Below are positions 20,208-50,442 of a stretch of DNA of 64,000 nucleotides, piece by piece; within the stretch, counting starts at the first letter, position 1, and the number at the start of each line of letters is the position of its first letter. The position numbers and the translations under genes were made by a program. The notes under the pieces were generated by a model. The model ran no database searches. It worked only from the letters and a program-made list of their open reading frames with translations, and was not told where the DNA came from. The stretch lies in assembly GCF_016698665.1 (NCBI RefSeq), contig NZ_CP068046.1, positions 2,418,001 to 2,482,000 of the forward strand, written 5' to 3'. This stretch comes from Devosia rhizoryzae. GTDB lineage: Bacteria; Pseudomonadota; Alphaproteobacteria; Rhizobiales; Devosiaceae.

Positions 20208-20224
20208 TCTACTAAGTTTGTAGA
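20208..20224. promoter_or_regulatory. Operator-like inverted repeat TCTAC-N7-GTAGA (site A)
   Basis: TCTAC-TAAGTTT-GTAGA, perfect 5-bp arms, 34 bp before the start of the flavin monooxygenase operon. The same 17-bp motif recurs at 23229, 27835 (one mismatch), 50426 and degenerately at 33855, each before a sulfur gene. Confidence 0.7.
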
Positions 20225-20258
20225 CTTATGGTGGTGACCTGTTTTGACGGGAGCCGCC

Positions 20259-21269
20259 ATGTCTTATCGCCTCAGCCTGCTCGACAAGAGCCCCATCGGA
20301 AAAGGTGAGACCGCATACACGGCCCTGCGCCGCACCATCGCTTATGCGCAGCAGGCCGAGGCGCTGGGCTATACTCGTTTTTGGGTGGCCGAACACCATA
20401 ACACAGCCGAACTTGCGAGTTCTTCGCCCGAGATCCTGATCGCGGCGCTCGCCACCGCGACCAGCACCATCCGCCTCGGCTCCGGTGGCGTCATGCTGCA
20501 GCATTACAGCCCCTATAAGATCGCCGAGAACTTCAATCTACTGGAAAGCCTAGCCCCTGGGCGGATCGATGTGGGCATCGGCAAGGCACCGGGTGGATTG
20601 CCGCTCTCGACCAGGGCGCTGCAGGCAGGGCGCGATCCTGATCGCCACCCGGACTTTGCCCAGCAGCTGCGCGAGTTCGACGCCTATCTCGGCGCCGGTT
20701 CGGCCGAGCGGGTTGAAGGGCTGGCCGCTACCCCTGCCCCGCACACGCAGAGCGAGCGGTTCCTGCTGGGCGCCAGCGTTGAAAGCGCGCAGCTAGCCGC
20801 TGAACTTGGCTGGCAATTTGTTTTCGCACGGCACCTCAATGGCGACGATGTCGTGCTCGCCTCTGCGATCTCGACTTATCGAAACCTCGTTCACCGCACC
20901 CCGATTGTTGCCCTGGCAGCCATCGTCGATCCGGACGGCGGCAAAGCGCGCGAGACTGCCTCTGGCTTTACCCCGTTCCGCGTCACCATCCCCGGCGGCC
21001 AGAGCGTTACGGTGGGCAGCGAGGCGCAAGCGGCCGAATATGCCCGCCAAGCGGGCGCCGTCGATTACACCATCGAAAAGCGCAAGGCCAATGTGCTTGC
21101 CGGCGACGGCCACGACATCATCGCCGCCACGGACAGGCTGGCCCGCCAGTTCGGCATCGAGGAATTCATCCTCGATCTGTTCAATCCCGGCGACAGCCGC
21201 CTCGTTGCCATCGGCCTGATCGCATCGGCGCGCGACGCCGCTGCCGCACCCCAAGCTCTTTCCGCCTGA
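20259..21269 (+). CDS. LLM-class flavin-dependent oxidoreductase
   Basis: 336-residue luciferase-like monooxygenase that uses reduced flavin supplied by a separate reductase. Start ATG at 20259 (MSYRLSLLDKSPIGKGE). Motifs are YTRFWVAEHHNTAELASSSPEILIAALA (a classic LLM N-terminal block), IRLGSGGVMLQHYSPYKIAENFNLLESLAPGRIDVGIGKAPGG and FILDLFNPGD at the end. It is first in an operon with the NtaA-type monooxygenase and a GNAT, under site A. The likely role is oxidative release of sulfur or carbon from an organosulfur compound; the substrate is not determinable. Confidence 0.87.
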   Translation: MSYRLSLLDKSPIGKGETAYTALRRTIAYAQQAEALGYTRFWVAEHHNTAELASSSPEILIAALATATSTIRLGSGGVMLQHYSPYKIAENFNLLESLAPGRIDVGIGKAPGGLPLSTRALQAGRDPDRHPDFAQQLREFDAYLGAGSAERVEGLAATPAPHTQSERFLLGASVESAQLAAELGWQFVFARHLNGDDVVLASAISTYRNLVHRTPIVALAAIVDPDGGKARETASGFTPFRVTIPGGQSVTVGSEAQAAEYARQAGAVDYTIEKRKANVLAGDGHDIIAATDRLARQFGIEEFILDLFNPGDSRLVAIGLIASARDAAAAPQALSA

Positions 21270-21285
21270 TTTCTGGAGACATGCC

Positions 21286-22620
21286 ATGACCAAGTCCCGT
21301 ATCCCGTTCGGCCTTATGCTGCATGGCCCCGGTGGCCACATGAACGCCTGGAAGCATCCAAGCGGCCCGGCCGACGCCTCGGTCAACTTCCAATTTCTGC
21401 TCGAGCAGACCAGGAAGGCAGAAGCCGCCGGCATTGCCTTCGCCTTTGTGGCGGACGGGCTCTACATCAATGAGCAGTCGATCCCGCACTTCCTCAACCG
21501 CTTCGAGCCCATCGCGCTGCTGTCAGCCCTGGCCGCAACCACCAGCACGATCGGCCTCGTGGGGACTCTCTCCACGTCTTATAGCGACCCTTTCACCGTG
21601 GCGCGCCAGTTCGGCTCCATCGACCTGTTGAGCAATGGTCGCGCTGGCTGGAACGCCGTCACCTCACCGCTCGAAGGCTCTGCCAAGAACTATGGCCGCA
21701 TCCAGCACCCTGATCACGCCCTGCGTTATGAGATCGCCGGCGAGCACATCGAGATCGTCAAGGGTCTGTGGGACAGCTGGGACGATGATGCCTTTGTGCG
21801 CGACCGCACCAGCGGACGTTTCGCTGATTTTGAAAAGCTGCATCGGCTCAACTTCAAGGGCAAGTTCCACTCGGCCGAGGGTCCGCTAAATATCCAGCGT
21901 TCGCCGCAAGGGCAGACCGTGTTGTTCCAGGCGGGCGGATCCCCGGCAGGCGTCGAACTTGCGGGACGCCATGCTGATGCGGTGTTCGCCGCCTCGACAA
22001 GCATCGCGGAAAATCGCGAGCTGACGCAAAAGCTCAAGCAAAGCGCCATCGCTCATGGCCGCGGCGCCGATGCAATCAAGGTGCTGCCCGGCGTCGGCAT
22101 CATCGTGGGGTCCACGGAAGAGGAAGCGGAACGCAAGTATCTGGAGATCGCCGGCCTCGTGAACGTCACCGAGGCGCTTCATTATCTAGGCCGGTTCTTT
22201 GATCACCACGATTTCAGCCAGTACGATCTGGATGCGCCGTTCCCTGAACTCGGAGATATCGGCTGCAATAATTTCCAGTCCGGCACCGACAAGATCAAGG
22301 CAAGAGCCAAACAACTCGGCCAGTCCTTGCGGGAAGTGGCCCTGGAGCAGACCACCCCGCGCAGCGAATTCCACGGCACCCCGGAAAAGATCGCGGACAA
22401 GCTCGAGGAGTGGGTAGACACCGGCGCCGCCGACGGCTTCGTGCTCGGCTTCCCAGTCTCGGCGCAAGGCTGGGAGGACTTCGACCAGCACGTCTTGCCC
22501 ATTCTTGAACGGCGCGGACGCCACAACCGCGATCAGATCGGCACCACCCTGCGCGATCACCTTGGTCTGCCGTTTCGCGAAAGCCGCTATGCGCTGGCCG
22601 AGGAAAAGGCAGCCGGCTGA
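21286..22620 (+). CDS. NtaA/SnaA/DszA family FMN-dependent monooxygenase
   Basis: 444-residue flavin monooxygenase of the nitrilotriacetate/DszA/DmoA group. The start PFGLMLHGPGGHMNAWKHP, then FAFVADGLYINE, LSALAATTSTIGLVGTLSTSYSDPFTVARQFGSIDLLSNGRAGWNAVTS and VLFQAGGSPAGVELAGRHADAVFA are family hallmarks. It is translated 17 bp after the previous gene and overlaps the GNAT start. It acts on a sulfone, sulfide or similar substrate with FMNH2, possibly from the reductase at 27165. In sulfur-scavenging contexts these enzymes cleave C-S bonds, and that is the favoured inference here. Confidence 0.9.
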   Translation: MTKSRIPFGLMLHGPGGHMNAWKHPSGPADASVNFQFLLEQTRKAEAAGIAFAFVADGLYINEQSIPHFLNRFEPIALLSALAATTSTIGLVGTLSTSYSDPFTVARQFGSIDLLSNGRAGWNAVTSPLEGSAKNYGRIQHPDHALRYEIAGEHIEIVKGLWDSWDDDAFVRDRTSGRFADFEKLHRLNFKGKFHSAEGPLNIQRSPQGQTVLFQAGGSPAGVELAGRHADAVFAASTSIAENRELTQKLKQSAIAHGRGADAIKVLPGVGIIVGSTEEEAERKYLEIAGLVNVTEALHYLGRFFDHHDFSQYDLDAPFPELGDIGCNNFQSGTDKIKARAKQLGQSLREVALEQTTPRSEFHGTPEKIADKLEEWVDTGAADGFVLGFPVSAQGWEDFDQHVLPILERRGRHNRDQIGTTLRDHLGLPFRESRYALAEEKAAG

Positions 22621-23165
22621 TGAGCGACCGTTTCCTTTATACGCTTCCGACCGACCCAGTCGCCGTGCCGCTGGTCGAGCAACTGACCGATGAGTATCAC
22701 ACACGATACGGCGACTACTTCGAGAAAGGTGGCGCCAGCCAGGAAATGAATCGCTATCCGCCAGAGCGCTTCAGCGCGCCTGATGGCGCCTTCGTGCTCC
22801 TTCTGCGCGGTGAGCGGCCGATCGCTGGCGGCGCCTTCATGCGCTACGACGAACATACCGCAGAGCTCAAGCGGATGTGGACCGATCGCGATCATCGCCG
22901 CCAGGGTCTGGCGCGAAGGGTGCTGGCCGAGCTCGAGGCCCAAGCGCTCCGTCAGAACTACCGAAAGGTCTATCTCACCACCGGCTTCCGTCAGCCAGAG
23001 GCGCGCGAGCTTTACTTGCGCGCGGGTTACTCGCCGCTGTTCGACCTCGATGCCGAGCCCGAAACGGTACAGATTCTGGCGTTCGAAAAGCGTCTGCTTC
23101 CTGTCGGAGCGCTGTTTGCCAACGAAAATGGTGATGCGCCACGATCCGCCGCCGCGGGCAAATAG
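22620..23165 (+). CDS. GNAT family N-acetyltransferase
   Basis: 181-residue acetyltransferase whose ATG overlaps the upstream stop (TGATG). It has ELKRMWTDRDHRRQGLARRVLAELEAQALRQNYRKVYLTTG, which contains the acetyl-CoA binding R/Q-x-x-G-x-G/A region (RRQGLA), followed by QPEARELYLRAGYSPLF typical of motif B. Substrate is unknown. Because it is co-transcribed with two organosulfur monooxygenases it may acetylate an S-containing amine or a thiol-amino acid for detoxification. Confidence 0.88.
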   Translation: MSDRFLYTLPTDPVAVPLVEQLTDEYHTRYGDYFEKGGASQEMNRYPPERFSAPDGAFVLLLRGERPIAGGAFMRYDEHTAELKRMWTDRDHRRQGLARRVLAELEAQALRQNYRKVYLTTGFRQPEARELYLRAGYSPLFDLDAEPETVQILAFEKRLLPVGALFANENGDAPRSAAAGK

Positions 23166-23228
23166 TTTCCGGCGACCCTTAAACTTGCAACGGCGTCACT
23201 TCTCTCCGGCGCCTTCGTCCTACTAATA

Positions 23229-23245
23229 TCTACAAATATAGTAGA
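23229..23245. promoter_or_regulatory. Operator-like inverted repeat TCTAC-N7-GTAGA (site B)
   Basis: TCTAC-AAATATA-GTAGA, perfect arms extended by flanking A/T (ATCTAC...GTAGAT), 14 bp before the ATG of the fused ABC transporter. It is the best-conserved copy of the repeated motif. Confidence 0.72.
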
Positions 23246-23258
23246 TTAAAGGTGCAAC

Positions 23259-25034
23259 ATGGCTTCGGTTACCGATATCGGTCTCGAGACGGCTCCGCGA
23301 ACCAGCTCGCGAGACTTGCAGCGTCTGCGCATTGTGCCAGCGCGCCACCCCTGGCGCGTGGCGGGGACCGTCCTCGCCGCCGCGATCATTCTCATCTCGC
23401 TTCATTCGGTTTTCACCAATGAGCGCTGGGGATGGTCGGTCTTTGCGGAATACTTCTTTTCCGAGCCGGTGCTCGCTGGTCTTGGTCGGACGCTGCAGCT
23501 AACCGCGGTTTCGGCAGTGATCGGCTTTATCCTTGGCGGCCTCCTGGCCTTTGCCCGCGTCTCCAAGTCGCCCCTGCTCTCGACGCTGTCCTGGGGCTAC
23601 ATCTGGCTCTTGCGATCGATCCCACTGATCGTGCTGCTGCTGGTACTCAACAACCTCGGGTATCTTTACGCCACGATCAATCTTGGCGTGCCGTTCACCG
23701 AGATTATGTGGGCGCAGTTCGACACAGTCCAGACGCTGAGCCCTTTTGCCGTCGCCGTTATCGGCCTCAGCCTCAACCAGGCGGCGTTCTCCTCCGAGAT
23801 CATCCGTGGCGGCATCCTGTCCGTCGACCAGGGCCAGCATGAGGCAGCCGCCGCGCTTGGCCTCAGCCGCTGGCGCCAGGCGGTCCACATCGTCCTGCCG
23901 CAGGCCATGCGCGCCATCCTGCCTTCGGGCTTCAACGAGATCATCGGTCTCGCCAAGGCGACGTCCATTGTCTACGTCCTGGCGCTGCCCGAGCTCTTCT
24001 ACACCGTGCAGGTGATTTATCGGCGAAACCTCGAAGTCATTCCGCTGCTGATGGTGGCGACCGTTTGGTACCTCATCATCATGGTCGTGCTGTCAGCCTT
24101 CCAATACCTCATCGAGCAGTATTATTCCCGCGGCGCTCGTCGCGAAGCCCTACCGCCGCTGGTGGACAAGCTGTTCCGGATCATCAGCCGCAAGGCACCG
24201 GAAGTCGCATCCGCAGCGCCGGTCTCTGTCGTTGCCGACCGCAAGCCCCTGGCGGGCTTCGAAAGCGGCCGCATCGGCGGCGAAGTGGCGATCCACGGCG
24301 TCAACAAGAGCTTCGGCACCCTCAAGGTGCTGGACGATATCGACCTCACTGTCGGGTCGGGCGAAGTGGTTGCCATTATCGGCCCGTCTGGCGCCGGCAA
24401 GTCGACGCTGCTGCGCACGATCAATCACCTCGAGCGCGTGAACACCGGCCTCGTTGCCATCGACAGCGAACTGATCGGCTACGAACGGCGCGGCGATGCA
24501 CTGTATGAGCTGAAAGAACCGGCCATCCGCCGCCGCCGTGCGGGTGTCGGCATGGTGTTCCAGAACTTCAACCTCTTCCCGCACCTTACGGCGCTGGAAA
24601 ACGTGGTCGAGGCGCCGATCTCGGTGGCCGGCGTCCCACGCGAACAAGCCCTTGCTTCCGGTCGTGACCTGCTTGCCCGCGTCGGCCTGGCCGACAAGGC
24701 CGATGTTTATCCGCGTCATCTGTCTGGTGGCCAGCAGCAGCGCGTTGCCATCGCCCGCGCCCTGGCGCTCCGTCCCAAGGTGCTGCTGTTCGATGAGCCG
24801 ACCTCGGCGCTCGATCCCGAACTCGTCGGCGAAGTCCTCGACGTGATCAAGGAACTGGCGAAATCCGGCACAACGCTGGTGATCGTCACGCACGAAATCG
24901 GCTTTGCCCGCGAAGTCGCCGACCGGATCGTCTTCATGGAAGCCGGCCGCATTCTAGAAATCGCGGCGCCGGAGCGATTGTTTAGCGCGCCGACGCATCA
25001 CCGCACCAGAGAGTTCCTAGCCAAGGTTCTCTAG
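23259..25034 (+). CDS. Fused amino-acid-type ABC permease / ATP-binding protein
   Basis: 591 residues joining a HisM-type permease and a HisP-type ATPase. Residues ~30-310 hold about five membrane segments and the EAA loop (SEIIRGGILSVDQGQHEAAAALGLSRWRQAVHIVLPQAMRAILP). Residues ~340-591 form the ATPase with Walker A IGPSGAGKST, signature LSGGQQQRVAIARAL, Walker B LLFDEPTSALDPE and switch ITHEIGFA. One polypeptide supplies both transporter parts. Two paralogous binding proteins follow directly. Given site B and the sulfur context, cystine or another S-compound is a reasonable ligand guess. Confidence 0.9.
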   Translation: MASVTDIGLETAPRTSSRDLQRLRIVPARHPWRVAGTVLAAAIILISLHSVFTNERWGWSVFAEYFFSEPVLAGLGRTLQLTAVSAVIGFILGGLLAFARVSKSPLLSTLSWGYIWLLRSIPLIVLLLVLNNLGYLYATINLGVPFTEIMWAQFDTVQTLSPFAVAVIGLSLNQAAFSSEIIRGGILSVDQGQHEAAAALGLSRWRQAVHIVLPQAMRAILPSGFNEIIGLAKATSIVYVLALPELFYTVQVIYRRNLEVIPLLMVATVWYLIIMVVLSAFQYLIEQYYSRGARREALPPLVDKLFRIISRKAPEVASAAPVSVVADRKPLAGFESGRIGGEVAIHGVNKSFGTLKVLDDIDLTVGSGEVVAIIGPSGAGKSTLLRTINHLERVNTGLVAIDSELIGYERRGDALYELKEPAIRRRRAGVGMVFQNFNLFPHLTALENVVEAPISVAGVPREQALASGRDLLARVGLADKADVYPRHLSGGQQQRVAIARALALRPKVLLFDEPTSALDPELVGEVLDVIKELAKSGTTLVIVTHEIGFAREVADRIVFMEAGRILEIAAPERLFSAPTHHRTREFLAKVL

Positions 25035-25125
25035 ACCTCCCTACTCGCGCCATTCTCCTCAAGACCATGCCGGTCAGCGGCAGGATGGCGCACGTCCCTT
25101 CACCCTCCGCAAACTGGTCGCAACA

Positions 25126-26064
25126 ATGTCCGATAGACGCACTCTCCTTCTCACCTCCACTACCGCGCTGCTGCTCACTGCAGTGCCAGCTTCGGTCCTG
25201 GCCCAGGCGTTCGATCTCAGCCCCGAACCAGCCAATCGGCTGCATGCCGAAAAGGTCGAAGCGCTCGCGGCGCTGCTGCCGGGCGATTACGACTACGCCA
25301 AGGACGGCGTTCTCAGCGTCGCCATCGCCCCTGGTGCCCCGCCGGTCGCGACCTATGCCACCGATAGCAAGACAGTGGTCGGCTTCGATGCCGATATCGG
25401 GCGGCTGGTAGGCGAAGTGCTCGGCGTGCCGGTGGAGATCGTGCCTATCGCCTGGATCGACTGGCCACTGGGCCTCACCGCCGGCAAGTATGACGCGGTG
25501 ATCTCCAATGTCGGCGTCACCGAGGAGCGCAAGGAGAAGTACGACTTCTCGACCTATCGCAAGGGCGTTCACGGCTGGTACGTCAAGGCGGACAGCGCCA
25601 TCGAGGCGATTGACGAGCCGGCCGACATCGCGGGCCTCCGTGTCATTACCGCTTCGGGCACCAACCAGGAGCGCATCACGCTCGAATGGGATCGCCTCAA
25701 CCAGGAAGCCGGGCTCGCTCCGGTCGAGATCCAGTATTACGACGACGACGCCGCAGCCTCGCTCGCCATCCAGTCCGGCCGCGCCGACGTGCAGTTCAAC
25801 CCCAATGCGCCGCAGGCCTACCACGCGCTGCTGACCGGCGACACCAAGCTTGTCGGAACGCTAAGTTCGGGCTGGCCCAATCCAGCCGAGGTAGGCGTCA
25901 CCACCCGCAAGGATAGCGGGCTGGCCGAGCCGATTACTGCTGCCATCAACAACCTGATCGAAACCGGCACCTATGCCGAACTGCTCGAACAGTGGAACCT
26001 CGTGCCCGAAGGTGTCGAGCAGTCGCAAACCAATCCGCCGGGCTTGCCCAAGCCGAAGGCCTGA
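25126..26064 (+). CDS. ABC transporter substrate-binding protein (SBP_bac_3 type), paralogue 1
   Basis: 312 residues with a Sec signal peptide (cleavage near VLAQA). The mature part has VGFDADIGRLVGEVLGVPVEIVPIAWIDWPLGLTAGKYDAVISNVGVTEERKEKYDFSTYR, the polar-amino-acid binding-protein pattern, and IQYYDDDAAASLAIQSGRADVQFNPN. It delivers ligand to the fused transporter just upstream. It is highly similar to the next gene over the whole length, so the pair arose by tandem duplication. Divergence near the ligand region (HGWYVKADSA versus VGFYVRSDSE) suggests different ligand preferences. Confidence 0.9.
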   Translation: MSDRRTLLLTSTTALLLTAVPASVLAQAFDLSPEPANRLHAEKVEALAALLPGDYDYAKDGVLSVAIAPGAPPVATYATDSKTVVGFDADIGRLVGEVLGVPVEIVPIAWIDWPLGLTAGKYDAVISNVGVTEERKEKYDFSTYRKGVHGWYVKADSAIEAIDEPADIAGLRVITASGTNQERITLEWDRLNQEAGLAPVEIQYYDDDAAASLAIQSGRADVQFNPNAPQAYHALLTGDTKLVGTLSSGWPNPAEVGVTTRKDSGLAEPITAAINNLIETGTYAELLEQWNLVPEGVEQSQTNPPGLPKPKA

Positions 26065-26131
26065 GCCGCCAACATATCCTGGTGCGGGCGCGGCACCGGG
26101 CTGTCCTCCCAGCATGCGCAAAGGAACGATC

Positions 26132-27055
26132 ATGACCCTTCATCTCAAGACCCTTCTGGCGGGCATTGCCGTGGCGACACTTGCCAGTGCCAGCTTTGCC
26201 GTTGAGTTCGACCTCTCGCCCGAGCAGCCAGGGCGGCTCAAGGCAGAACCTAACCAGGAGGCAATCGACGCTATCGGCGCAGATTACCAGTTCGTCGAAG
26301 ACGGCAAGTTCACCGTTGCGGTGACGCCGTTCGATCCGCCGATTGCCACCTACGCCTCGGACTCGCAGACCGTCATTGGCGTTGATCCGGACATCGCCTC
26401 CTTGATCGCCGACTCGCTGGGGCTCAAGGTCAACCTCGTGCCCACCGCGTGGCCGGATTGGCCGCTGGGTGTCTCGTCGGGCAAATACGATGCGGTAATT
26501 TCCAACGTCACGGTCACCGAGGAGCGCAAAGAAAAGTTCGATTTCTCGAGCTACCGTCAGGACGTTGTCGGGTTTTACGTTCGCAGCGACAGCGAGATCC
26601 AGGCAATCAACGAGCCCGAGGATGTTGCAGGGCTCAGGGTCATCACCGGCGCTGGCACCAACCAGGAAAAGATCATCCTCGAATGGGATCGCCAGAATAT
26701 CGCAGCCGGGCTCGCACCGATCGAAGTGCAGTATTACGACGATCCGGCTGCCGCGCAGCTGGCAATCCAGTCCGGCCGCGCCGACGTACAGTTCAATCCT
26801 AATCCGACGCTCGCCTACGCTGCGGCAACGACCGGGCAAACGCGCCTTGTGGGCGTACAGAGTGGCGGCTGGCCGGTCACGGCTGAGATCGCGGTGACAA
26901 CACGCAAGGACGCCGGCCTGGCCGAAGCCGTGACCATCGCCCTCAACGGGCTGATCGAAAGCGGGCTCTATGCCCAAACGCTTGAGCGCTGGAATGTGTC
27001 AGCTGAAGCCGTCGAACAATCCCGCACCAATCCACCGGGTCTGCCCAAGAGCTGA
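26132..27055 (+). CDS. ABC transporter substrate-binding protein (SBP_bac_3 type), paralogue 2
   Basis: 307 residues from the ATG at 26132, which follows AAAGGA; a longer frame upstream overlaps paralogue 1 and is rejected. The signal peptide ends near SFAVEF. It shares FDLSPE near the mature N-terminus, WPLGVSSGKYDAVISNVTVTEERKEKFDFSSYR, SGRADVQFNPN and the C-terminal SRTNPPGLPK with paralogue 1. No second permease is present, so both receptors probably feed the single fused transporter at 23259. Confidence 0.9.
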   Translation: MTLHLKTLLAGIAVATLASASFAVEFDLSPEQPGRLKAEPNQEAIDAIGADYQFVEDGKFTVAVTPFDPPIATYASDSQTVIGVDPDIASLIADSLGLKVNLVPTAWPDWPLGVSSGKYDAVISNVTVTEERKEKFDFSSYRQDVVGFYVRSDSEIQAINEPEDVAGLRVITGAGTNQEKIILEWDRQNIAAGLAPIEVQYYDDPAAAQLAIQSGRADVQFNPNPTLAYAAATTGQTRLVGVQSGGWPVTAEIAVTTRKDAGLAEAVTIALNGLIESGLYAQTLERWNVSAEAVEQSRTNPPGLPKS

Positions 27056-27164: not shown

Positions 27165-27716
27165 TTAGTTGATGAACGGGTCCCGGTTGGGCAGCAACTG
27201 CTGATACTGCCCGCGCCAATAAAGCAGCGGCTCCTGACCTGCCGTGAGTTCCACCGACCGTACGCGGCCGAGCACGATGGCATGGCTATGCCGCTCGATC
27301 GCTTCATCGAGTTCACACTCAATTACCGCCACAGCCGACTTCAATCCCAGCGTGCCGCTATCGAGGCGGTTCCACTCCGAGCCCACATATCGGTCATTTC
27401 CCTTGATGCCGCCGCGACCGGCGAAGCGGTCGGCAACGGCAGACTGGCTGTCGGCCAGGATGTTGACCGCGAAGGATTTGGCATCGCGCAAGGCAGGCCA
27501 GGATGATGAATCGCGATTAAGGCTTACCAGGATCGTAGGTGGTTCGACGGAGAAGGACGAAACTGACGTGGCCGTGAAGCCGGTACGATTTTCACCAGTG
27601 CCCACGGTGATGACGCTGACCGCACCTGCCAGGTTTCGCATGGCGTCCTTGAACTCGGCCACGTCCACTTGAGGCTCCAGAACCGGAAGATAGCTGGCAA
27701 AATCGACAATCGACAC
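27165..27716 (-). CDS. Flavin reductase family protein
   Basis: 183-residue FMN-binding split-barrel reductase that uses NAD(P)H to make FMNH2 for two-component monooxygenases. It has FKDAMRNLAGAVSVITVGTGENRTGFTATSVSSFSVEPPTILVSLNRDSSSWPALRDAKSFAVNIL, the standard N-terminal flavin-binding block, and SHAIVLGRVRSVEL near the end. GTG at 27716 is chosen because GGAG lies 7 bases upstream; a TTG further up is possible. It diverges from DUF3088 with operator-like site C in the gap, so it is likely the reductase for the LLM, NtaA-type and SsuD enzymes in this region. Confidence 0.9.
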   Translation of the reverse strand: MSIVDFASYLPVLEPQVDVAEFKDAMRNLAGAVSVITVGTGENRTGFTATSVSSFSVEPPTILVSLNRDSSSWPALRDAKSFAVNILADSQSAVADRFAGRGGIKGNDRYVGSEWNRLDSGTLGLKSAVAVIECELDEAIERHSHAIVLGRVRSVELTAGQEPLLYWRGQYQQLLPNRDPFIN

Positions 27717-27834
27717 GGGGGTACTCCGCAAAGAGAAAGCAGCTTATAGCGCAAGGCTAGCGCCCCTTGCCCCAGCGCGGGAGATCACCGAAGAGTACAG
27801 TTTCTCACGACCGCCGAACGAAATGAAATTTACG

Positions 27835-27851
27835 TCTATCATCTTTGTAGA
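27835..27851. promoter_or_regulatory. Operator-like inverted repeat (site C) in divergent promoter
   Basis: TCTAT-CATCTTT-GTAGA, one mismatch from TCTAC-N7-GTAGA. It lies between the divergent flavin reductase and DUF3088 genes and could control both. Confidence 0.62.
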
Positions 27852-27923
27852 CTAATGATGAACATGGTTTACTCTCTCCCCCATGAGGAGACGCACAAGG
27901 CGTCCAGGCGAGCGGAGCAGATG

Positions 27924-28295
27924 ATGGCCAAGGATAGGCTTTTCCTGATTGAACCAGGCTTTAATGCCGCTGACCGCGAGGACGGCCCCTTTGTTTGTCC
28001 GTTCTGCAACCAGGTCGAGGGCCTTTTGGCCAGCTTCCCCGATCGCGCTCGCAATCTCGAAATTACCCGCGCGCCCTTCGCCCGTCCCCGCCAGCAAGTG
28101 GTGGCGCTGGTCGGCGAGCACAATCAGGCGCTGCCCCTGCTCATCTTCGGAGAAGACGCGCCGGCCGACGCCAAGCACTTCGCCGAACTTAGTTTTGTAG
28201 CGGACACTGGCCGCATCCTCGAACTGCTCGCCGAGCGGCACGGCTTTCCAAACCTTTTCCGCCCGGCTCCGCCGGCGGCAGCCAAAGTTGCCTAG
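27924..28295 (+). CDS. DUF3088 family protein
   Basis: 123-residue thioredoxin-fold-like protein of unknown function. AKDRLFLIEPGF...GPFVCPFCNQVEGLLASFPDRARNLEITRAPFARPRQQVVALVGEHNQALPLLIF is the DUF3088 pattern and includes a CPFC dithiol motif. The second ATG (27924) is used: GGAG lies 6 bases upstream, and a start further up at 27855 would sit on the operator. CPFC plus the sulfur neighbourhood suggests a redox or thiol role. It is convergent with the Rrf2 gene, with 1 bp between the stops. Confidence 0.83.
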   Translation: MAKDRLFLIEPGFNAADREDGPFVCPFCNQVEGLLASFPDRARNLEITRAPFARPRQQVVALVGEHNQALPLLIFGEDAPADAKHFAELSFVADTGRILELLAERHGFPNLFRPAPPAAAKVA

Positions 28296-28296
28296 C

Positions 28297-28743
28297 TCAG
28301 GCCGACAAAGCCTGCGCGAGCTGCTCTTCGCTACCCATGGCGGCCATCTGCGTCAGGCTGGTCTTGTCGAGCACGTCGGCAATGGCATTTCGCACCTCGA
28401 GCATAAGGTGGCGAACCTGACAGGTTTCGACATCGCAATCGTGGCAGGGATGATAGCGCGTGCGGCTAGCGCAAGGGATCGGCGCCAGCGGGCCATCAAG
28501 GACGCGGACCACATGCCCAATCATGATCTCCTCGGCAGGTTTTGCCAGGCCATAACCGCCCAGCTTGCCTTTGCGGCTGCGCACGAAACCGGCATTGCGC
28601 AGCTCCGCAAGAATGGCATCGAGAAATTTTTTGGGTATGTTGTTTGCCTCGGCCAGCTGCGCGATACCCATCAGTTGCCCATGCGGCGCCCGCGACAAAG
28701 CCGACAAGGCTTTCAATCCATATTTGCCTTTTTTGGTGAGCAC
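28297..28743 (-). CDS. Rrf2 family transcriptional regulator
   Basis: 148-residue winged-helix regulator starting GTG at 28743 (VLTKKGKYGLKALSAL, the Rrf2 N-terminus). The HTH lies around 25-65 (IAQLAEANNIPKKFLDAILAELRNAGFVRSRKGKLGGYGLAKPAEEI). The C-terminal half carries four cysteines, Cys91, Cys100, Cys103 and Cys108, spaced C-x8-C-x2-C-x4-C. This differs from the IscR cluster-binding spacing but could bind metal, an Fe-S cluster or respond by thiol modification. The family includes CymR, the cysteine regulator of Firmicutes. It sits in the middle of the sulfur region and is the best candidate to read the TCTAC-N7-GTAGA sites. Confidence 0.9.
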   Translation of the reverse strand: MLTKKGKYGLKALSALSRAPHGQLMGIAQLAEANNIPKKFLDAILAELRNAGFVRSRKGKLGGYGLAKPAEEIMIGHVVRVLDGPLAPIPCASRTRYHPCHDCDVETCQVRHLMLEVRNAIADVLDKTSLTQMAAMGSEEQLAQALSA

Positions 28744-28839: not shown

Positions 28840-29916
28840 ATGATCGCTCCACTGCTCACGTCCTTTTCAATCGGCGCCCTCAACTTCCCGAACCGCGTGG
28901 TGATGGCCCCCATGACCCGTCGCCGCGCTGCGTATGGGAAGCTGCCGACGGCGTTGATGGCGCAGTATTATGCGCAGCGCGCCAGTGCCGGGCTCATCAT
29001 CAGCGAGTCCATCGAGGTCGACCCCTTAAGCGGTCTTCAAGGTCCCACCCGGCCCGGGCTGTTCAATGAGAAGCAGCGCGATGCCTGGCTCCTGGTGACG
29101 CGGGCAGTGCATGAGGCCGGTGGCCGCATTTTTGCGCAGCTTTCCCATATGGGTCGGGCGGCTCATGCAAGCCAACTGGAACCCGGTGGCAGGGTTATCG
29201 CGCCATCGGCGATCGCCGCTTCGGGGCAGATCTATACGGCAAAAGGCCCAGTGCCGTACGAGACGCCGGCCGAACTTGATACCACCGACATCGCAACCCT
29301 GGTGCAACAGTACGCTCTGGCCGCCGCGCTGGCGCAGGAGGCAGAGTTTGACGGGGTCGAACTCCATGGGGCCAATGGCTATCTGATCGACCAATTTCTT
29401 CGCGATGCGAGCAACCAACGGATTGACCATTATGGCGGGTCCGCCGCCAACCGCGCTCGGTTCCTGCTCGAAATCTTCGATGCTGTCAGTCAGGTCTGGC
29501 CACGCTCGCAGATCGGCGTGCGAGTGTCCCCGACCAACACATTTCAAGGCATGGGCGACAGCGATCCAGTGGCCCATTTCACTGCCATTGCCCAACTGCT
29601 AAGTGCCAGGGCACCAGCCTATCTGCATGTGGTGGAGCCGCCCGTGCAACCCGAGGGCGTACCTTACGTCGCCGGAGCGATCCGCGCCAACTTCACCGGG
29701 CCTCTGATCCTCGCCGGGAAATTCGGTTTAGCGACCGGCAACGCCGCTATCGAGACCGGCCGTGCCGATCTCGTCGCTTTCGGAGAAAGCTTTCTCGCCA
29801 ATCCGGACCTGCCGCAGCGCTTCCTCAGCGGGGCCGCGCTCAACGAACCCGACAAAGCGACATTTTACACTTCGGGCGAGGCGGGCTACACCGACTATCC
29901 CTTCGCGCAAGGCTAA
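28840..29916 (+). CDS. Alkene reductase, Old Yellow Enzyme family
   Basis: 358-residue FMN ene-reductase, a TIM barrel. Key parts are [13 protein letters not shown], the substrate-binding His/Asn pair in [42 protein letters not shown], and [15 protein letters not shown] for FMN phosphate binding. OYEs reduce activated C=C bonds with NAD(P)H and often act in electrophile detoxification. It diverges from the Rrf2 gene and overlaps the convergent SsuD gene by 4 bases at its end. A role in the sulfur region is not obvious; it may protect thiols from electrophiles. Confidence 0.92.
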
Positions 29917-31058
29917 ACCCGGATTTGCTCCTTGCCGTGGAAGCCGACGGAGAACTCGTTGCTGACGGTTTCGACAAGGGTCTGCTTCTTGTTGCCCAGA
30001 CCCAGCGCCGGGAACAACAGTTCGGCGACGCGATAGCTTTCCTCGAGATGCGGATAGCCGGAGCCGATGACGAGATCGATGCCGGCCTCTTGGTATTCGC
30101 GCAGGCGCTCGGCGACTTGGTCTGGCGTTCCCACCAGCGCCGTGCCGGCGCCATTGCGAACGAGGCCGACACCGGCCCAAAGGTTGGGTGCGACGAGGAG
30201 CTTGTTGCGATCGCCGCCATGGAGGTCGGCCATGCGACGCTGGCCGACGCTGTCCATCTGCTGGGTGAAGCGGGCTTGCGCTGCCGCGATTTGGCTATCG
30301 GACACCTTGCTGATCAGCCGATCGGCTTCGCGCCACGCTTCTTCCTCGGTCTCGCGCACGATGAAGTGGAGCCGAATGCCGAAGCGCAGCTTGCGGCCCC
30401 GTGCTGTCGCCTTGGCCTGCGCGGCAGCGACCTTTTCGGCAACCTGGGCCACCGGCTCACCCCAGGTGAGATAGGTGTCGATCTGTTCGGCCGCGAGCTC
30501 CTGCCCGGCATCGGAAGAGCCGCCGAGATAGATCGGCGGGTGGGATTGCTGGACTGCGCGCTGGTCGAGGCGACCGCCTTCGACACGATAATGCTTGCCG
30601 TGAAAATCAACAGTTTCGCCGGACAGGAGGCGGCGGAAGATGGTGAGGAATTCGGCCGCCTGTTCATAGCGTTCGCCGTGGGGCAGGAACACGCCGTCCC
30701 CGGCAAGCTCCACCGGATTGCCACCAACCACGACGTTGAGCAGCAGGCGACCATTGCTCAGCCGGTCGAGCGCGGCGGCCTGACGGGCGGCAAAGGTCGG
30801 CAGGGTGACGCCGGGACGCAGGGCAACGAGGTATTTAAGCCGCTCGGTGACAGTGGCGAGACCCGTGGCGGTAATCCAGGACTCTTCGCAGTTCTGGCCG
30901 GTCGGCAGTAGCACGCCTTCGTAGCCCAACTGGTCGGCTGCCTGGGCGATCTGCTTGAAATAGCGGAAATCGGGCTGCCGCTCGCCATCGCCCGAGCCAA
31001 GGTAGCGGCCATCGCCATGGGTGGGGATGAACCAGAAGAAGTCGAGTGGTTTGCTCAT
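29913..31058 (-). CDS. ssuD: FMNH2-dependent alkanesulfonate monooxygenase
   Basis: 381-residue LLM enzyme that cleaves alkanesulfonates to aldehyde and sulfite with FMNH2 and O2. It begins [15 protein letters not shown] and has [33 protein letters not shown] (with the active-site Cys region), [43 protein letters not shown] and [18 protein letters not shown] at 31058 is chosen; the frame open upstream lies inside the permease gene. It is last in the tauA-tauB-tauC-ssuD operon. FMNH2 is probably supplied by the reductase at 27165. Confidence 0.95.
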
Positions 31059-31063
31059 GGCGC

Positions 31064-31900
31064 TCACTGATTGCGGGACCAGGGCACATAGCGGCGCTCG
31101 ATGAAGCGCAGCAACGCTTCGAAGGCAAAGGCTATGGCCGAAATAACGAGGATGCCGGCGATGACGACATCGGTGACGAGGAACTGCGCGGCCGACTGGA
31201 TCATGTAGCCAAGCCCCCGGCCTGCGGCGACGAGTTCGGCCGCCACCAAAGTGGTCCACCCGGCGCCAAGGGCAATGCGAATGCCGGTCAGGATTGAGGG
31301 AACTGCCGCGGGCAAAAGCACATGGGTCAAAAGCTGGAGCGGTGTCGCGCCAAAGGCCCGCGCGGCATTGACCTGGCTTTTGGAGGCAGAGCGCACGCCG
31401 GCGGCCGTGGAAATGATGATGGCTGGTGCCATTGAAAGAGCAATGACCAGCACCTTGCTGGTTTCGCCGATGCCGAACCAGATGATGACCAGCGGCAGGT
31501 AGGCGAGCGGCGGAAGCGGGCGCAGGAACTCTACGATCGGGTCGAGTACGCCGCGACCGGTGGGACTTGTGGCGATCAGGAGGCCAGCCGGAACGCCAAC
31601 AAGCACCGAGAAGAACAGGGCCGAAAAAACGCGCCAAAGGCTCGCGCCGATATGCTGGAGCAGCGTGCTGTCGACATAGCCGGTGTGAAATAGGCGGAGG
31701 AAGGCGGAAAGGATCGATGCCGGCGGCGGTAGAAAGACCGGCGAGACCCAACCGGACGTGCTGGCCACATGCCAAAGCGCGATCACGAAGGCGGTGACGC
31801 CCAGGCCTGCGAGGGCCGGCAGCGCCTTGCGCCACCGGCGGGTCTTGGCCCGGTCGCGTTCTGCCTGAGAGAGGGGAGCCGCTTCAGTCGCCACGGTCAT
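31064..31900 (-). CDS. Sulfonate/taurine ABC transporter permease
   Basis: 278-residue SsuC/TauC-type permease from the ATG at 31900, which overlaps the ATPase stop (ATGA). About six membrane segments; the EAA-type loop is [86 protein letters not shown] is typical of the NitT/TauT group. It works with the ATPase at 31897 and the binding protein at 32770. Confidence 0.93.
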
Positions 31901-32679
31901 GCTGCCACCTCGTAGTCCGGGCGATGGATGGCCGCGATCAGCTCTTCGCGCGCCGCAACGAAGGCGGGTTCGGATTTCAGGGCACGGGCGTTCTCGCCCG
32001 CAAGGAAGCGGCGACCGAATTCGAAATCTTGCGTCAAGGCGATGCGGCCGGGATTGGCAGCCAGAACCACGACGCGCGTCGCGAGGAACAAGGCTTCTTC
32101 CACCGAGTGGGTGATCAGCAGCGCGCCGGTGCCCGAGCGGCTCCAAACCGTCAGCAGGAGCTCCTGCATCTGGTCGCGGGTCATGGCGTCGAGTGCGCCC
32201 AAGGGCTCGTCCATCAGCAGGAATTCGGGCTCAGCCGCAAGCGCCCGCGCGATGCCCACACGCTGCCGCATGCCGCCGGACAGCTCCCAGATTTTTTTGT
32301 CGCCCTGACCGCCGAGGCCGACATCGGCGAGCAGCGCATCGGCGCTGGCATTGCGTTCGTCGCGCGAAACGCCGCGAAGTTTGAGCGGAAATGCGACGTT
32401 GTCGCGCGCGTTGGACCAGGCAAATAGCGCATCATCCTGGAAGACCACGGCGCGCTCCGCCGAGGGGCCGGTGACATCCTTGCCATCAAGGATGATGCGG
32501 CCATGGTTCGGCTCGAGGAAACCCGCCGCGAGGTTGAGTAGACTGGTCTTGCCCGATCCCGATTGGCCAAGCACGACGACAAAATCACCCTTGCCGATGC
32601 CAAGGGTGACGCGATCGAGCACGTTGGTTCGAGCGCCTTCATAGACAAAGGAAACGGCGTTGAGGCGAAGTTCGGACAT
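31897..32679 (-). CDS. Sulfonate/taurine ABC transporter ATP-binding protein
   Basis: 260-residue ATPase of the TauB/SsuB group. Walker A is LGQSGSGKTSLLN, then QDDALFAWSNARDNVAFPLKLRGV, a TauB-like Q-loop region, signature ELSGGMRQRVGIARAL, Walker B LLMDEPLGALD and switch ITHSVEEALFLATRV. The second gene of the operon, it is separated from the binding-protein gene by a 10-bp-stem hairpin, which probably lowers expression relative to the receptor. Confidence 0.93.
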   Translation of the reverse strand: MSELRLNAVSFVYEGARTNVLDRVTLGIGKGDFVVVLGQSGSGKTSLLNLAAGFLEPNHGRIILDGKDVTGPSAERAVVFQDDALFAWSNARDNVAFPLKLRGVSRDERNASADALLADVGLGGQGDKKIWELSGGMRQRVGIARALAAEPEFLLMDEPLGALDAMTRDQMQELLLTVWSRSGTGALLITHSVEEALFLATRVVVLAANPGRIALTQDFEFGRRFLAGENARALKSEPAFVAAREELIAAIHRPDYEVAA

Positions 32680-45557: not shown

Positions 45558-45580
45558 CAGCAGCACGGCCTCAACATGTG

Positions 45581-45609: not shown

Positions 45610-45759
45610 TTGGTGTTGATTTGTCGCAAGGGTTTTTTTGCGAGCCGGTTCAATAGTTAATCGCCTGATCGGGTTTAGCGTGTGAGCTTCAACGCTCGTA
45701 CTTGGCGGAGGACGCCAAAGCGGTGCAGGCAGGCTTGCATTTAATCGCTGAAGCCGACT

Positions 45760-46341: not shown

Positions 46342-46350
46342 TCGCCTCTC

Positions 46351-46779
46351 CTATTGCGCTCCGGCGGCACAGGGGTTGAGTGCAGCACAAGGCGCGCCCG
46401 CGGCGCAAGGGTTTGCCGCAGGAGCGGCAGCCGCACACGGGGCTGCAGCTGCACAGGGGGCAGCTGCCGCGCATGGTGCGGCAACGGGCGCCGGAGCGCC
46501 GGCTGCGCAGGGATTGCCGACGGCAGCTGGTGCACCTGCCGCGCAGGGATTGCCTGCGGCACACGGATTGGCAACAGGCGCTGCCGCCGCACAGGGATTT
46601 GCGGCCGCACAGGGGCCCGCCGCAGCGCAGGGATTGTCTGCGGCGCAGGGGTTTGCGGCCGCAGCGGCAGCTGCAACAGGCGCCGGTGCACGCGCCGGGC
46701 TCGTGACGTGGTCAGCAGCCACGGCCGCAGTGGCGACCAGGGCAGCAGCGCCGAAAAGAAGGGTGTTGCGTGCGCTCAT
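46351..46779 (-). CDS. Exported Cys-rich Pro-Cys-Ala-Ala repeat protein
   Basis: 142 residues: a signal peptide (RNTLLFGAAALVATAAVAA, ~1-22) and a low-complexity mature region of Ala, Pro, Cys, Asn and Gly. Thirteen Pro-Cys-Ala-Ala units occur at 4-10 residue intervals, many as Asn-Pro-Cys-Ala-Ala; there is no Cys outside them. Its ATG overlaps the YeeE stop (ATGA), so translation is coupled to a sulfur-compound transporter. Function is unknown. A periplasmic thiol/persulfide carrier or soft-metal buffer is plausible. Confidence 0.75.
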   Translation of the reverse strand: MSARNTLLFGAAALVATAAVAADHVTSPARAPAPVAAAAAAANPCAADNPCAAAGPCAAANPCAAAAPVANPCAAGNPCAAGAPAAVGNPCAAGAPAPVAAPCAAAAPCAAAAPCAAAAPAANPCAAGAPCAALNPCAAGAQ

Positions 46780-47987
46780 TTCCGTTTGAACCCATCAAGT
46801 CCGAATACCGGACGAAGCAAGATGCCGCCAAGGCTTCCGACGAAAGCGGCAGCAAACCAAAGCCAGCCATGAACACTGCCCGATGCAATGCCCGAGAATA
46901 GCGCCCCGATATTGCAGCCAAAGGAGAGCCGGGCGCCATAGCCCATCAGCACGCCGCCGATGGCCGCGGCGATCAGTGACAGCAATGGCAGTGCGGCCTT
47001 GGGGGCAAACTTGCCGGCAAGACCCGCCGCGAGGGCTGCGCCCAAGATCAGGCCGAAGTCCATCACGGAGGTCGAGTCTTGGAGCACGCTGGCCTCAAGC
47101 GCCTGCGCCTGTGCGGGCCAGGTCCAGAATTCCCAGCTGGACACCGGAACACCGACAGCCTGCGCGATCTTGGCGCCCCACAGACCAAAGCCATAGGTGA
47201 TGGACCAGGGGTGGCCGGCGACCAGCAGCGTCAGGACGTTCAGTCCGGCCAGCGCCAAGCCCGCGCCGACCAGCGGCCAGGGCCCACGCAGAAGACGGGC
47301 CCAGCCATGGACCGAGGGTGCGGCAAATGTTTCCAATGAGCCATGGCGCCGGCGCTCGACAAACACCGTGAGCAGTGCCACGGAGGCAAGGCCTGCCAGA
47401 GTGACCATCAGTGCCACTGGCACGCCGAGGCTCGCGCCAAGGCTAATGGCGGGAAGCGAAGGTTGGGTCAGCCAGAACGGCAGGTGTGCGGTTCCAAGGA
47501 GCGCGCCGGCGATGAAGAATGCCAGCGTGACCAGCATGCGCGAGCTGCCACCGCCAACGGTAAACAGCGTCCCTGAGCCGCAACCACCGCCCAGTTGCAT
47601 GCCGAGGCCGAACATTGCGGCCCCCAGCAACACCGAGACGCCAACCGGAGCGGTGGCCCCTGCAAGCGGCTGCCCAAAAGGGTTGCCGAGCGTGAGGAGC
47701 GGGATAAACGCCAGTGCCGCGACGCCGATCATCAGCATCTGCGCTCGCATGGCATGACCACGGCCATCCACCACCATGCGGCGCCAGCCACCGGTGAAAC
47801 CAAACGAGGCGTGATAAAGCGTCAGCCCCATAAGGCTGCCGATAAAGAACAGCGCTGCCTGCCGCAGATCGACAAGCTGCCAAATGACGATTGTGCCAAA
47901 CGCCAGAGCAAGACTGGCAAACCACACCGGGCCACGATCAAAGGAAATGGGCGCGGGTCGCAATTGGCCCGCAGTCGTATCAGTCAT
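46776..47987 (-). CDS. YeeE/YedE family (TsuA-like) sulfur-compound transporter
   Basis: 403-residue inner-membrane protein with nine or more hydrophobic segments and internal duplication. The two conserved cysteine motifs of TsuA-type thiosulfate carriers are present: LGGGCGSGTLFTVGGGS in the first half and ARLSFGCNIGALFSGIASGSVHGWLW in the second. ATG at 47987 (MTDTTAG) is preferred; an ATG seven codons upstream is possible. Its 3' end is translationally coupled to the Cys-repeat protein. Thiosulfate or another sulfane-sulfur compound is the expected cargo. Confidence 0.9.
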   Translation of the reverse strand: MTDTTAGQLRPAPISFDRGPVWFASLALAFGTIVIWQLVDLRQAALFFIGSLMGLTLYHASFGFTGGWRRMVVDGRGHAMRAQMLMIGVAALAFIPLLTLGNPFGQPLAGATAPVGVSVLLGAAMFGLGMQLGGGCGSGTLFTVGGGSSRMLVTLAFFIAGALLGTAHLPFWLTQPSLPAISLGASLGVPVALMVTLAGLASVALLTVFVERRRHGSLETFAAPSVHGWARLLRGPWPLVGAGLALAGLNVLTLLVAGHPWSITYGFGLWGAKIAQAVGVPVSSWEFWTWPAQAQALEASVLQDSTSVMDFGLILGAALAAGLAGKFAPKAALPLLSLIAAAIGGVLMGYGARLSFGCNIGALFSGIASGSVHGWLWFAAAFVGSLGGILLRPVFGLDGFKRK

Positions 47988-48059
47988 CACATGCCTCAAC
48001 AAAAACAAGCTTGCCCGGACGCGTCACCTGGGCAAGCAAACACGCTTATTCGGTATCAA

Positions 48060-48977
48060 TCAGTTCGTGACAACCGGGCGGCTCGGGTCCGAGGTCCAGT
48101 CCGACATCGACCCATCATAGAGCCGAACATTGGGCAGGCCTTCGACTTCGGAGAGACCAAACCAGGCGATGGAAGCCAGGTGACCGGTATTGCAGAAGGA
48201 GATGAACCCTTCGCTGTCATTGACACCTGCATCGCGGGCCAGCTGGGCAATGGTATCGGCGCTGGCAAAAGCCGGCTTTTCAGCGTCGTAGAACTTGTCG
48301 AAGTTGATGTTGACGGCCGACGGGATGTGACCCAGCGCCTGCACGGTATTGGTCTTTTCCTGGCCGATGAACTGAGCGACCGACCGGGCGTCGACAAGGT
48401 TCACGTCATTGGCGATGGCTTCGTTGACTTCGGCGACTTCAGCGCGCAGCTCCGGGCGGAACTCAGCGTCGAACGTGGCGGCGACCGGGGTCACGGCTTC
48501 GGGCGAAAGTTCGCCGTTTGCCTTGGCCCATGCGGCGTAACCGCCATCCAGGATGGAAACGTTGTCGTGGCCGTAGACCTTGAAGGTCCAGTAGACACGC
48601 GTGGCGCCGCCGAAATCGGAAGCGTTGGCGCCACCGGTGAGGATTACGACATGGTCGTCATTGCTGACCCCAAGGCCGGAAACCAGCTTTTCGATAGCTT
48701 CTTCGGTGGGCAGGAGGCCCGGAACATCGCCGACCTTTGCACGCCAACCAGCAGCGGCATAGGGAGCAGCCACGGCGCCGGGCACGTGACCGGCAGCATA
48801 AAGATCGCCCGCATCGGTTGCATCGCGGATATCGAGCACGACGAGGCTATCATCGCCCAGGTGCTGGGCAAGCCAGGCGGCGTCAACCAGAGGCTGATCG
48901 GTGAGGCGCTCGGCCTGGGCAGCGCCCGTCATCAGCAGAGCTGCGGCCAGGGCCGCGCCAGCAAGATTGCGATGCAT
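48060..48977 (-). CDS. Secreted tandem-rhodanese sulfurtransferase
   Basis: 305 residues from the ATG at 48977 (AAGGAGAATTTC before it). Signal peptide ~1-22 (ending AAQA). Two rhodanese domains: the first (~35-150, LVVLDIRDATDAGDLYAAGHVPGAV) and the second (~170-300) with catalytic Cys in FISFCNTGHLAS. The first domain has ILTGGANAS where the Cys loop would be, so it is non-catalytic, as in thiosulfate:cyanide sulfurtransferases. It is encoded just upstream of and co-directional with the YeeE transporter, so it probably processes periplasmic sulfane sulfur. Confidence 0.92.
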   Translation of the reverse strand: MHRNLAGAALAAALLMTGAAQAERLTDQPLVDAAWLAQHLGDDSLVVLDIRDATDAGDLYAAGHVPGAVAAPYAAAGWRAKVGDVPGLLPTEEAIEKLVSGLGVSNDDHVVILTGGANASDFGGATRVYWTFKVYGHDNVSILDGGYAAWAKANGELSPEAVTPVAATFDAEFRPELRAEVAEVNEAIANDVNLVDARSVAQFIGQEKTNTVQALGHIPSAVNINFDKFYDAEKPAFASADTIAQLARDAGVNDSEGFISFCNTGHLASIAWFGLSEVEGLPNVRLYDGSMSDWTSDPSRPVVTN

Positions 48978-49183
48978 GAAATTCTCCTTCAAAGACGGTG
49001 TTCGACGTGACCTCCACTATCGCACGCCCGGTCCCGGAACGCTTCCGAAGCAGTTCCAAAGCTGCAAAGGGCGGAAAAAAATCTATCTACTCAGTCGTCT
49101 TTAGTTCGAAGGATTGTTCCTCCCTCGCGCTGGGCAGCCGGCAGGGGAGAGGTGATACTTTCCCCGTCCTCCTCTGCCATTTC

Positions 49184-49615: not shown

Positions 49616-49624
49616 ACGCAGCAA

Positions 49625-50347
49625 ATGCTCGTTACGGTAGGCTTTGCCTTTCTTGCCGGTGTTATCACCGTCCTGTCTCCCTGCGTCTTGCCGCTCTTGC
49701 CGATCATCCTGAGCTCGGGTGCCCAGGAGGGCCGGGCGCGTCCGATCGGCTTGATCGTCGGCTTCGTCGGCGCCTTCACCGCCGCCACGTTGGCACTGAG
49801 CTATCTGGTACGCTCGCTCGGCGTGCCGCCTGATCTTAATCGTATCCTGGCCGGCGCCGTGCTGATCCTGCTGGGCCTTGTGCTTGCCGTGCCGTTTCTC
49901 CACCGAAGCTTCGAGCGCTTCGCCGGGGTGATCGCCAGCCGCACCCCGGTGCCGCAGAACGGCTCGGGCTTTGGCGGCGGACTGGCCATTGGTGCCGGGC
50001 TCGGCCTTGCCTGGAGCCCGTGCGTCGGGCCGATCATGGCCTCGGTCATTACCCTGGCGCTCAATCAGCAAGTCGACGCTGGTGCCCTTGCGGTAACCCT
50101 GGCCTTTTCGCTGGGCACGGCGCTCCCCATGGCAGCCATCATGCTTGGTGGTCGGCAGATCACCCGGCGCCTCGCCTGGTTCCAGGCAAATGCCGGACGC
50201 ATCCAGCAGGTGCTCGGCGCGCTTCTTGTGCTCACCGGACTTGCGATCTTTTTGGGCTGGGACCGGCAGATCCAGATTTTGCTGCTTACCTGGTTCCCTG
50301 ATTGGGAACTGGCCCTCACCGGCTGGGAACCTCGTCCCACATTGTAG
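49625..50347 (+). CDS. CcdA/DsbD-type thiol-electron transporter
   Basis: 240-residue membrane protein with six membrane segments. The two redox cysteines lie in the usual places, VLSPCVLPLLPIILSSG and AWSPCVGPIMASVITLA. It passes electrons from cytoplasmic thioredoxin to periplasmic partners. Encoded directly after the thioredoxin-like protein, probably as a pair serving the sulfur island rather than cytochrome c maturation. Confidence 0.92.
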   Translation: MLVTVGFAFLAGVITVLSPCVLPLLPIILSSGAQEGRARPIGLIVGFVGAFTAATLALSYLVRSLGVPPDLNRILAGAVLILLGLVLAVPFLHRSFERFAGVIASRTPVPQNGSGFGGGLAIGAGLGLAWSPCVGPIMASVITLALNQQVDAGALAVTLAFSLGTALPMAAIMLGGRQITRRLAWFQANAGRIQQVLGALLVLTGLAIFLGWDRQIQILLLTWFPDWELALTGWEPRPTL

Positions 50348-50425
50348 GCATTTTATCGCGTGTTGGCGGGACAAAAAATCCTGCCGCACGCGCCAAAAAC
50401 AAAGCAATTCCGTTCGTTGCTAATG

Positions 50426-50442
50426 TCTACCAAGTTAGTAGA
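50426..50442. promoter_or_regulatory. Operator-like inverted repeat TCTAC-N7-GTAGA (site E)
   Basis: TCTAC-CAAGTTA-GTAGA, perfect arms, 37 bp before the start of the three-rhodanese gene and about 30 kb from site A. It links that gene to the sulfur regulon. Confidence 0.7.

Follow-up and report, generated by a model that had tools for sequence, protein, structure and literature searches.

CymR of Bacillus subtilis and Staphylococcus aureus is an Rrf2-family repressor of cysteine metabolism with a sulfur-acquisition regulon, and to our knowledge it binds no iron-sulfur (Fe-S) cluster. In enterobacteria, the ssu and tau genes are activated under sulfate starvation by the LysR-type regulators CysB and Cbl. 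We here describe a repeated palindrome, TCTAC-N7-GTAGA, in a 64,000-nucleotide stretch of the Devosia rhizoryzae genome (the window), together with the sulfur genes that it precedes and a nearby Rrf2-family protein that probably reads it as an operator. Among the family members IscR, NsrR, RirA and RsrR, we know of none that reads the general form of this operator, TCTAY-N7-RTAGA. Characterised Rrf2 proteins sense nitric oxide (NO), iron, cysteine or Fe-S status (excerpt of PMC5015018), and in 2015 the alpha-proteobacterial members were said to be poorly characterised (excerpt of PMC4618611). Sulfonates count among the major forms of soil sulfur (excerpt of PMC4267179), and a search of the open-access literature, with subscription papers and preprints outside its scope, found no description, for rhizobia or Devosia, of a regulator acting in sulfate or sulfonate starvation.

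The Rrf2 protein of the window is closest to CymR in fold: the top Protein Data Bank matches of its predicted structure (pLDDT 83, pTM 0.72) are the CymR structures 2y75, 3t8r and 3t8t, with 30–32% identity in the alignments. It differs from CymR in carrying a four-cysteine stretch, at whose positions the aligned CymR chains have no cysteines, and in scoring 91.4 bits with the NCBIfam CymR model, for which the cut-off is 195. Kinship with CymR, which the sequence-only reading names as a member of the family, stands as regards the fold; identity as a CymR equivalog is rejected on both the score and the cysteines. The target genes are of the class controlled by CysB and Cbl, which belong to an unrelated protein family and bind different operators. 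With IscR, NsrR, RirA and RsrR the system shares the protein domain, conserved cysteines after the helix-turn-helix domain and a 7-bp operator centre. RirA is described with three conserved cysteines (excerpt of PMC5863699), in contrast to the four of the present clade. IGTS8_peg394, a CymR/Rrf2 protein from Rhodococcus qingshengii IGTS8, is also different: it is an actinobacterial candidate from proteomics, the genes immediately around it code for no sulfur proteins, and no operator is described for it in the excerpt.

Results

A pattern scan of the window located exact arms of TCTAC-N7-GTAGA at 20208–20224, 23229–23245 and 50426–50442 and a copy with one mismatch at 27835–27851, all on the plus strand. 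These four matches at up to one mismatch compare with 0.26 expected, and none of 100 dinucleotide shuffles of the window reached four. A weaker fifth copy at 33855–33871 on the minus strand (ACTACTGAGTTTATCGA) is unlike the first site at four positions. Using an independent matrix of 19 sites from other genomes, with the sites of the window left out, this copy scores 13.7 bits and the other four 22–27 bits, after which the highest scores anywhere in the window drop to 7.7 and 7.5 bits; of 20 simulated 64-kb sequences (first-order Markov), one contained a match of at least 13 bits. The degenerate copy is very likely a real operator, since all six tauA orthologs found in a comparison set of 75 Devosia genomes (D. 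rhizoryzae included) carry a degenerate copy of 10.5–18.4 bits at a similar upstream distance. All five positions, first put forward in a sequence-only reading of the window, were thus recovered by the pattern scan and the independent matrix.

Each site is intergenic and lies between genes identified by family searches. The first is 34 bp before the gene for an MsnO8-type luciferase-like monooxygenase (LLM) and the second 13 bp before that for a fused ATP-binding cassette (ABC) transporter, the third separates the divergent flavin reductase (minus strand) and DUF3088 (plus strand) genes, the fourth lies upstream of tauA and the fifth 36 bp before a three-rhodanese gene. In a set of 59 non-redundant sites the flanks, which played no part in matrix building, are AT-rich, and the extended operator form is TWWW-n-TCTAY-N7-RTAGA-n-WWWA, a palindrome of about 25–27 bp.

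Within D. rhizoryzae the members of the regulon lie together, in a cluster spanning about 30 kb. The exact motif occurs three times in the whole 3.52-Mb genome, and every copy is inside the window; the dispersed regulon of the sequence-only reading is therefore rejected for this species, while the description fits genomes such as G006 and G061, in which operator sites lie far apart. The genome-wide scan, which that reading had suggested, also returned six one-mismatch copies, of which five lie outside the window, most with GC-rich centres, as expected of background. The strict form of the motif, TCTAYNANNNTNRTAGA, has five occurrences, four in the window and one at G000:C1:83447, which adjoins a PfkB kinase gene, overlaps the end of a predicted open reading frame (ORF) and is probably a chance match.

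The operator is conserved before orthologous genes of other Devosia species. All 15 orthologs of the fused ABC transporter in the 75 genomes have it just upstream (18.6–27.8 bits), and its centre varies while its position stays conserved. Together with the tauA orthologs, this is the opposite of the absence from orthologous promoters that would have spoken against the sequence-only reading. In relatives, five MsnO8-type orthologs are preceded by sites at 37–43 bp and six flavin-reductase orthologs by sites at 113–173 bp; a site also precedes the DUF3088 gene in locus L039 and lies 150 bp upstream of a rhodanese gene in genome G001. When genes adjoining sites in the fetched Devosia stretches and the window were clustered, flavin reductases (seven loci), MsnO8-type proteins (six) and ABC transporters (six) were followed by DAO-family flavin adenine dinucleotide (FAD) oxidoreductases (four, in the MsnO8 gap), NMT1-type binding proteins (four) and LysR proteins (three), the last three clusters being named from one scanned member each. 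Single site-adjoining genes encode MsuE, an SsuA-family protein, an O-acetylhomoserine sulfhydrylase and a rhodanese. As a test of regulator loss the sulfhydrylase gave a mixed result: among five close orthologs, sites are perfect in G006 and G096, weaker in G072 and G083 and below 8 bits in G094, and 24 of 25 more distant loci lack a match of 13 bits, the exception being in L310.

Operators before sulfur genes also occur beyond Devosia, which supports the sulfur regulon proposed from the window. A close Rrf2 is present in at least 80 named loci, belonging to Devosia, Mesorhizobium, Aminobacter and some unclassified Rhizobiales; the 80 compared add up to 1.52 Mb. Our first matrix gave 94 matches of at least 11 bits in these loci versus 16 in a reversed control, and 73 versus 1 at 14 bits. 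Sites of at least 15 bits were found near tauA in 19 loci (18 of them at 39–55 bp), near the gene for a sulfate/thiosulfate ABC binding protein in 19 loci (26–28 bp) and near ssuA in 9 loci (8 at 73–75 bp), counts that are not independent, many loci being closely related, and that rest on one scanned member of each group. Mesorhizobium ciceri WSM1271 has a close Rrf2 twice: the copy in L088 is found near taurine/sulfonate genes and that in L081 near genes for sulfate/thiosulfate uptake, and both loci have operators. In six Aminobacter loci (L029, 11502–11672 on the minus strand, L030, L032, L033, L035 and L036), an ORF of 56 amino acids begins 8 bp past a strong operator; the one member scanned has no Pfam match, and the product is possibly a small member of the sulfur regulon.

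The motif largely follows the Rrf2 protein across the genus. A close ortholog (E 1e-50 or better) is present in 25 of the 75 Devosia genomes, and 19 of these carry the strict motif versus 1 of the 50 others (Fisher 1.1e-11; 18 of 24, 3e-11, with D. rhizoryzae left out), in a test that was not blind, the strict pattern and the matrices having been chosen after the relatives were viewed. Summed over genomes, there are 35 strict sites in the Rrf2-bearing group and 1 in the other. In a wider set of 249 genomes from the order, 11 of the 26 with the ortholog have the motif, versus 30 of the 223 without it (p 8e-4). In genome G032 only a C-terminal fragment of the close Rrf2 is left (C4:228894–229100, query residues 79–147, 68% identical), which suggests that this species lost the regulator.

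A looser pattern, TCTAYNRNNNYNRTAGA, was rejected for its lower specificity, since it occurs in 15 of 17 genomes that have the ortholog and in 20 of 44 that do not; many of its matches in ortholog-free genomes have GC-rich centres and are intergenic, far from gene starts. GC-centred TCTAY-N7-RTAGA recurs between genes in Devosia without a close Rrf2 (L156–L159, L161, L167, L169 and L172–L174), mostly 220–420 bp from one gene and 280–920 bp from the next, and L157, L161, L169 and L172 match no Rfam family at the gathering score. A ubiquitous Rrf2 paralog (about 44–51% identical) is an unlikely reader of the operator. It is present in 61 of 61 genomes, including 44 that lack the close ortholog and in which the strict motif is nearly absent, and its 13 examined loci contain no matrix match of 9 bits or more. 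In one scanned locus its neighbours are a YbaL-like transporter gene (below cut-off) and PurU.

Some rrf2 genes are themselves preceded by the motif. Copies of at least 10 bits lie within 250 bp upstream of 38 of 96 distinct rrf2 genes, compared with 77 of 1137 other ORFs of the listed loci, a comparison group that includes true targets. Their distances are 50–69 bp in Devosia, 93–105 bp in Mesorhizobium/Aminobacter and scattered in five others; G223 has a site no more than 100 bp away from where its Rrf2 gene ends. Rrf2–DNA complexes are described with no base-specific contacts in the central 7 bp and, for NsrR, a site of 23 bp (excerpt of PMC9338935), and TCTAY-N7-RTAGA with its AT-rich flanks, compared from the DNA side only, has this layout.

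The Rrf2 gene of the window (28297–28743, minus strand, GTG start), situated amid the operator-bearing genes, encodes 148 amino acids. Its product belongs to the Rrf2 superfamily by PF02082 (E 6.5e-36; 124 bits, cut-off 30), TIGR00738 (114 bits, cut-off 73.3) and fold, and falls under the cut-offs of the Fe-S equivalog models (IscR 61/207.6, NsrR 63/182 and RirA 57/193 bits). Cysteines 91, 100, 103 and 108, spaced C-X8-C-X2-C-X4/5-C, are invariant in all 96 distinct sequences of the clade, that of the window included. A CymR-like regulon of sulfur and cysteine acquisition genes is indicated by operator position only. The best reading of the protein would be a cysteine-rich repressor of sulfur scavenging, and its four cysteines possibly hold an Fe-S cluster.

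Most genes behind the operators could be assigned to families. Operator 1 is followed on the plus strand by the MsnO8-family LLM oxidoreductase (20259–21269; TIGR03558, 309 bits, above cut-off, on ORF 20244–21269), an NtaA/DmoA-family flavin mononucleotide (FMN)-dependent monooxygenase (21286–22620; TIGR03860, 481 bits, above cut-off) and a GNAT acetyltransferase (22620–23165; PF00583). Behind operator 2, on the same strand, are the fused permease-ATPase ABC transporter of amino-acid/cystine type (23259–25034; PF00528 and PF00005; best NCBIfam model TcyN, 319/406 bits, below cut-off) and two family 3 solute-binding proteins (25126–26064 and 26132–27055; both PF00497, the second on ORF 25973–27055). 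Operator 3 is flanked by the flavin reductase (27165–27731, minus strand; PF01613, E 7.5e-38) and the DUF3088 protein (27921–28295, plus strand; PF11287, E 1e-35, on ORF 27855–28295), the start of which was set by comparing relatives.

Operator 4 faces a minus-strand series of TauA taurine-binding protein (32770–33768; TIGR01729, 425 bits, above cut-off), TauB-type ABC ATPase (31897–32679; PF00005, the Tau label coming from adjacency to tauA), an ORF at the position of the taurine permease (31064–31900; coding score and position only) and SsuD-type alkanesulfonate monooxygenase (29913–31043; TIGR03565, 584 bits, above cut-off, on ORF 29913–31835). An Old-yellow-enzyme family reductase gene (28840–29916, plus strand; PF00724) has no operator upstream in the window; L012 and L017 have one. 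The three-rhodanese protein behind operator 5 (50479–51768, plus strand) matches PF00581 in three stretches on ORF 50302–51768, and its gene neighbours encode thioredoxin, DsbD-type, second rhodanese and YeeE-type sulfur transport proteins. The YeeE-type protein (PF04143) and the second rhodanese (46776–48992, minus strand) face the thioredoxin, DsbD-type and three-rhodanese genes.

Discussion

From the observed sites, their conservation before sulfur genes and their association with the Rrf2 clade, we consider it probable that the motif is a sulfur-scavenging operator, bound by a dimer of the Rrf2 protein encoded at 28297–28743, which would repress the adjoining genes when sulfur is plentiful. 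At sulfur sufficiency the dimer, perhaps with an Fe-S cluster, would occupy some 27 bp at the transcription start or close to it and so block transcription. Under sulfur shortage the cluster would be removed or altered, Rrf2 would release the DNA and the target genes would be expressed. The derepressed products would include transporters, FMN-dependent monooxygenases, flavin reductase and rhodaneses, and the enzymes among them may draw sulfite or sulfane sulfur out of organic compounds. That this Rrf2 protein is the reader, as the sequence-only reading supposed, is supported by co-occurrence, proximity, the weak copies upstream of rrf2 genes and the 7-bp-centre geometry, from which we infer direct binding. 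The four cysteines would do the sensing, possibly in the form of an Fe-S cluster, and we infer repression rather than activation because sites lie 8–55 bp ahead of many start codons.

Several observations weigh against this reading. The rrf2 promoter of the window itself lacks a site (best score −0.1 bits), as do 58 of the 96 rrf2 genes at 10 bits within 250 bp upstream, and the strict motif is absent from 6 of the 25 Devosia genomes that have a close ortholog. Outside the genus the link is weaker (10 of 25), and the compared species are related and not independent. G083 (one contig, 98% complete) has no close Rrf2, yet carries a near-consensus site before the O-acetylhomoserine sulfhydrylase gene; G081 (about 530 contigs, 93% complete) has the ABC gene with its site and no close ortholog was detected in it. 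The ABC, tauA and ssuD genes are confined to the Rrf2-bearing Devosia genomes plus G081; the target genes travel with the regulator, and therefore co-occurrence cannot separate regulator from module. Some sites also adjoin genes with no known link to sulfur, among them those for a fasciclin-domain protein and an alpha/beta hydrolase.

The operator and the sulfur regulon may be real and another regulator, for instance a LysR-type protein of the CysB kind, may read it, Rrf2 being a neighbour in the module. LysR boxes have T-N11-A spacing, which TAC-N7-GTA contains, LysR genes adjoin three Devosia sites (one member scanned, GcvA-like), sites occur in two genomes without a detected close ortholog, and regulator and targets travel together. 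However, no LysR match was found among the window proteins scanned, LysR genes adjoin one class of site only, and many sites are very near start codons, unlike typical LysR activator sites. The strong co-occurrence with Rrf2, and the copies of at least 10 bits at set distances before rrf2 in several Devosia (50–69 bp) and several Mesorhizobium/Aminobacter (93–105 bp), likewise point to the Rrf2 protein, and we regard a LysR-type reader as unlikely. If the copies had arisen by chance, or formed a general promoter element that no particular regulator reads, this would account for the background copies in the genome, mostly GC-centred, but hardly for the result of the shuffles, the excess of strict sites in Rrf2-bearing genomes or a conserved position around a varying centre, and we give this explanation almost no weight.

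Alternatively, Rrf2 may read the operator and sense iron, Fe-S status, redox or NO, with the sulfur genes as part of its output. The four invariant cysteines, the site-adjoining genes that are not sulfur genes and the characterised Rrf2 sensors of NO, iron and Fe-S status (excerpt of PMC5015018) are in keeping with this. Against it, no iron-uptake, isc/suf or hmp gene was identified in the subset of site neighbours that was scanned, and many neighbours serve sulfur acquisition, including sulfate/thiosulfate uptake in Mesorhizobium; this alternative seems to us no likelier than a LysR-type reader. Repression of sulfur scavenging by Rrf2 is the reading that we retain.

With an operator defined, a candidate protein in hand and a regulon predicted in Devosia and Mesorhizobium, the question can be put to a direct test. 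More tentatively, and with some doubt, the four-cysteine Rrf2 proteins could form a distinct clade that serves many Hyphomicrobiales as their general repressor for sulfur limitation, with control over the uptake of sulfate, thiosulfate, taurine, sulfonates and organosulfur compounds, and that gauges sulfur by the filling of its own Fe-S or persulfide-modified cysteine cluster. If so, an Fe-S-type Rrf2 protein would act as a sensor of sulfur nutrition and not of iron, NO or redox, and such a four-cysteine sulfur sensor would link the branch of CymR with that of the Fe-S regulators.

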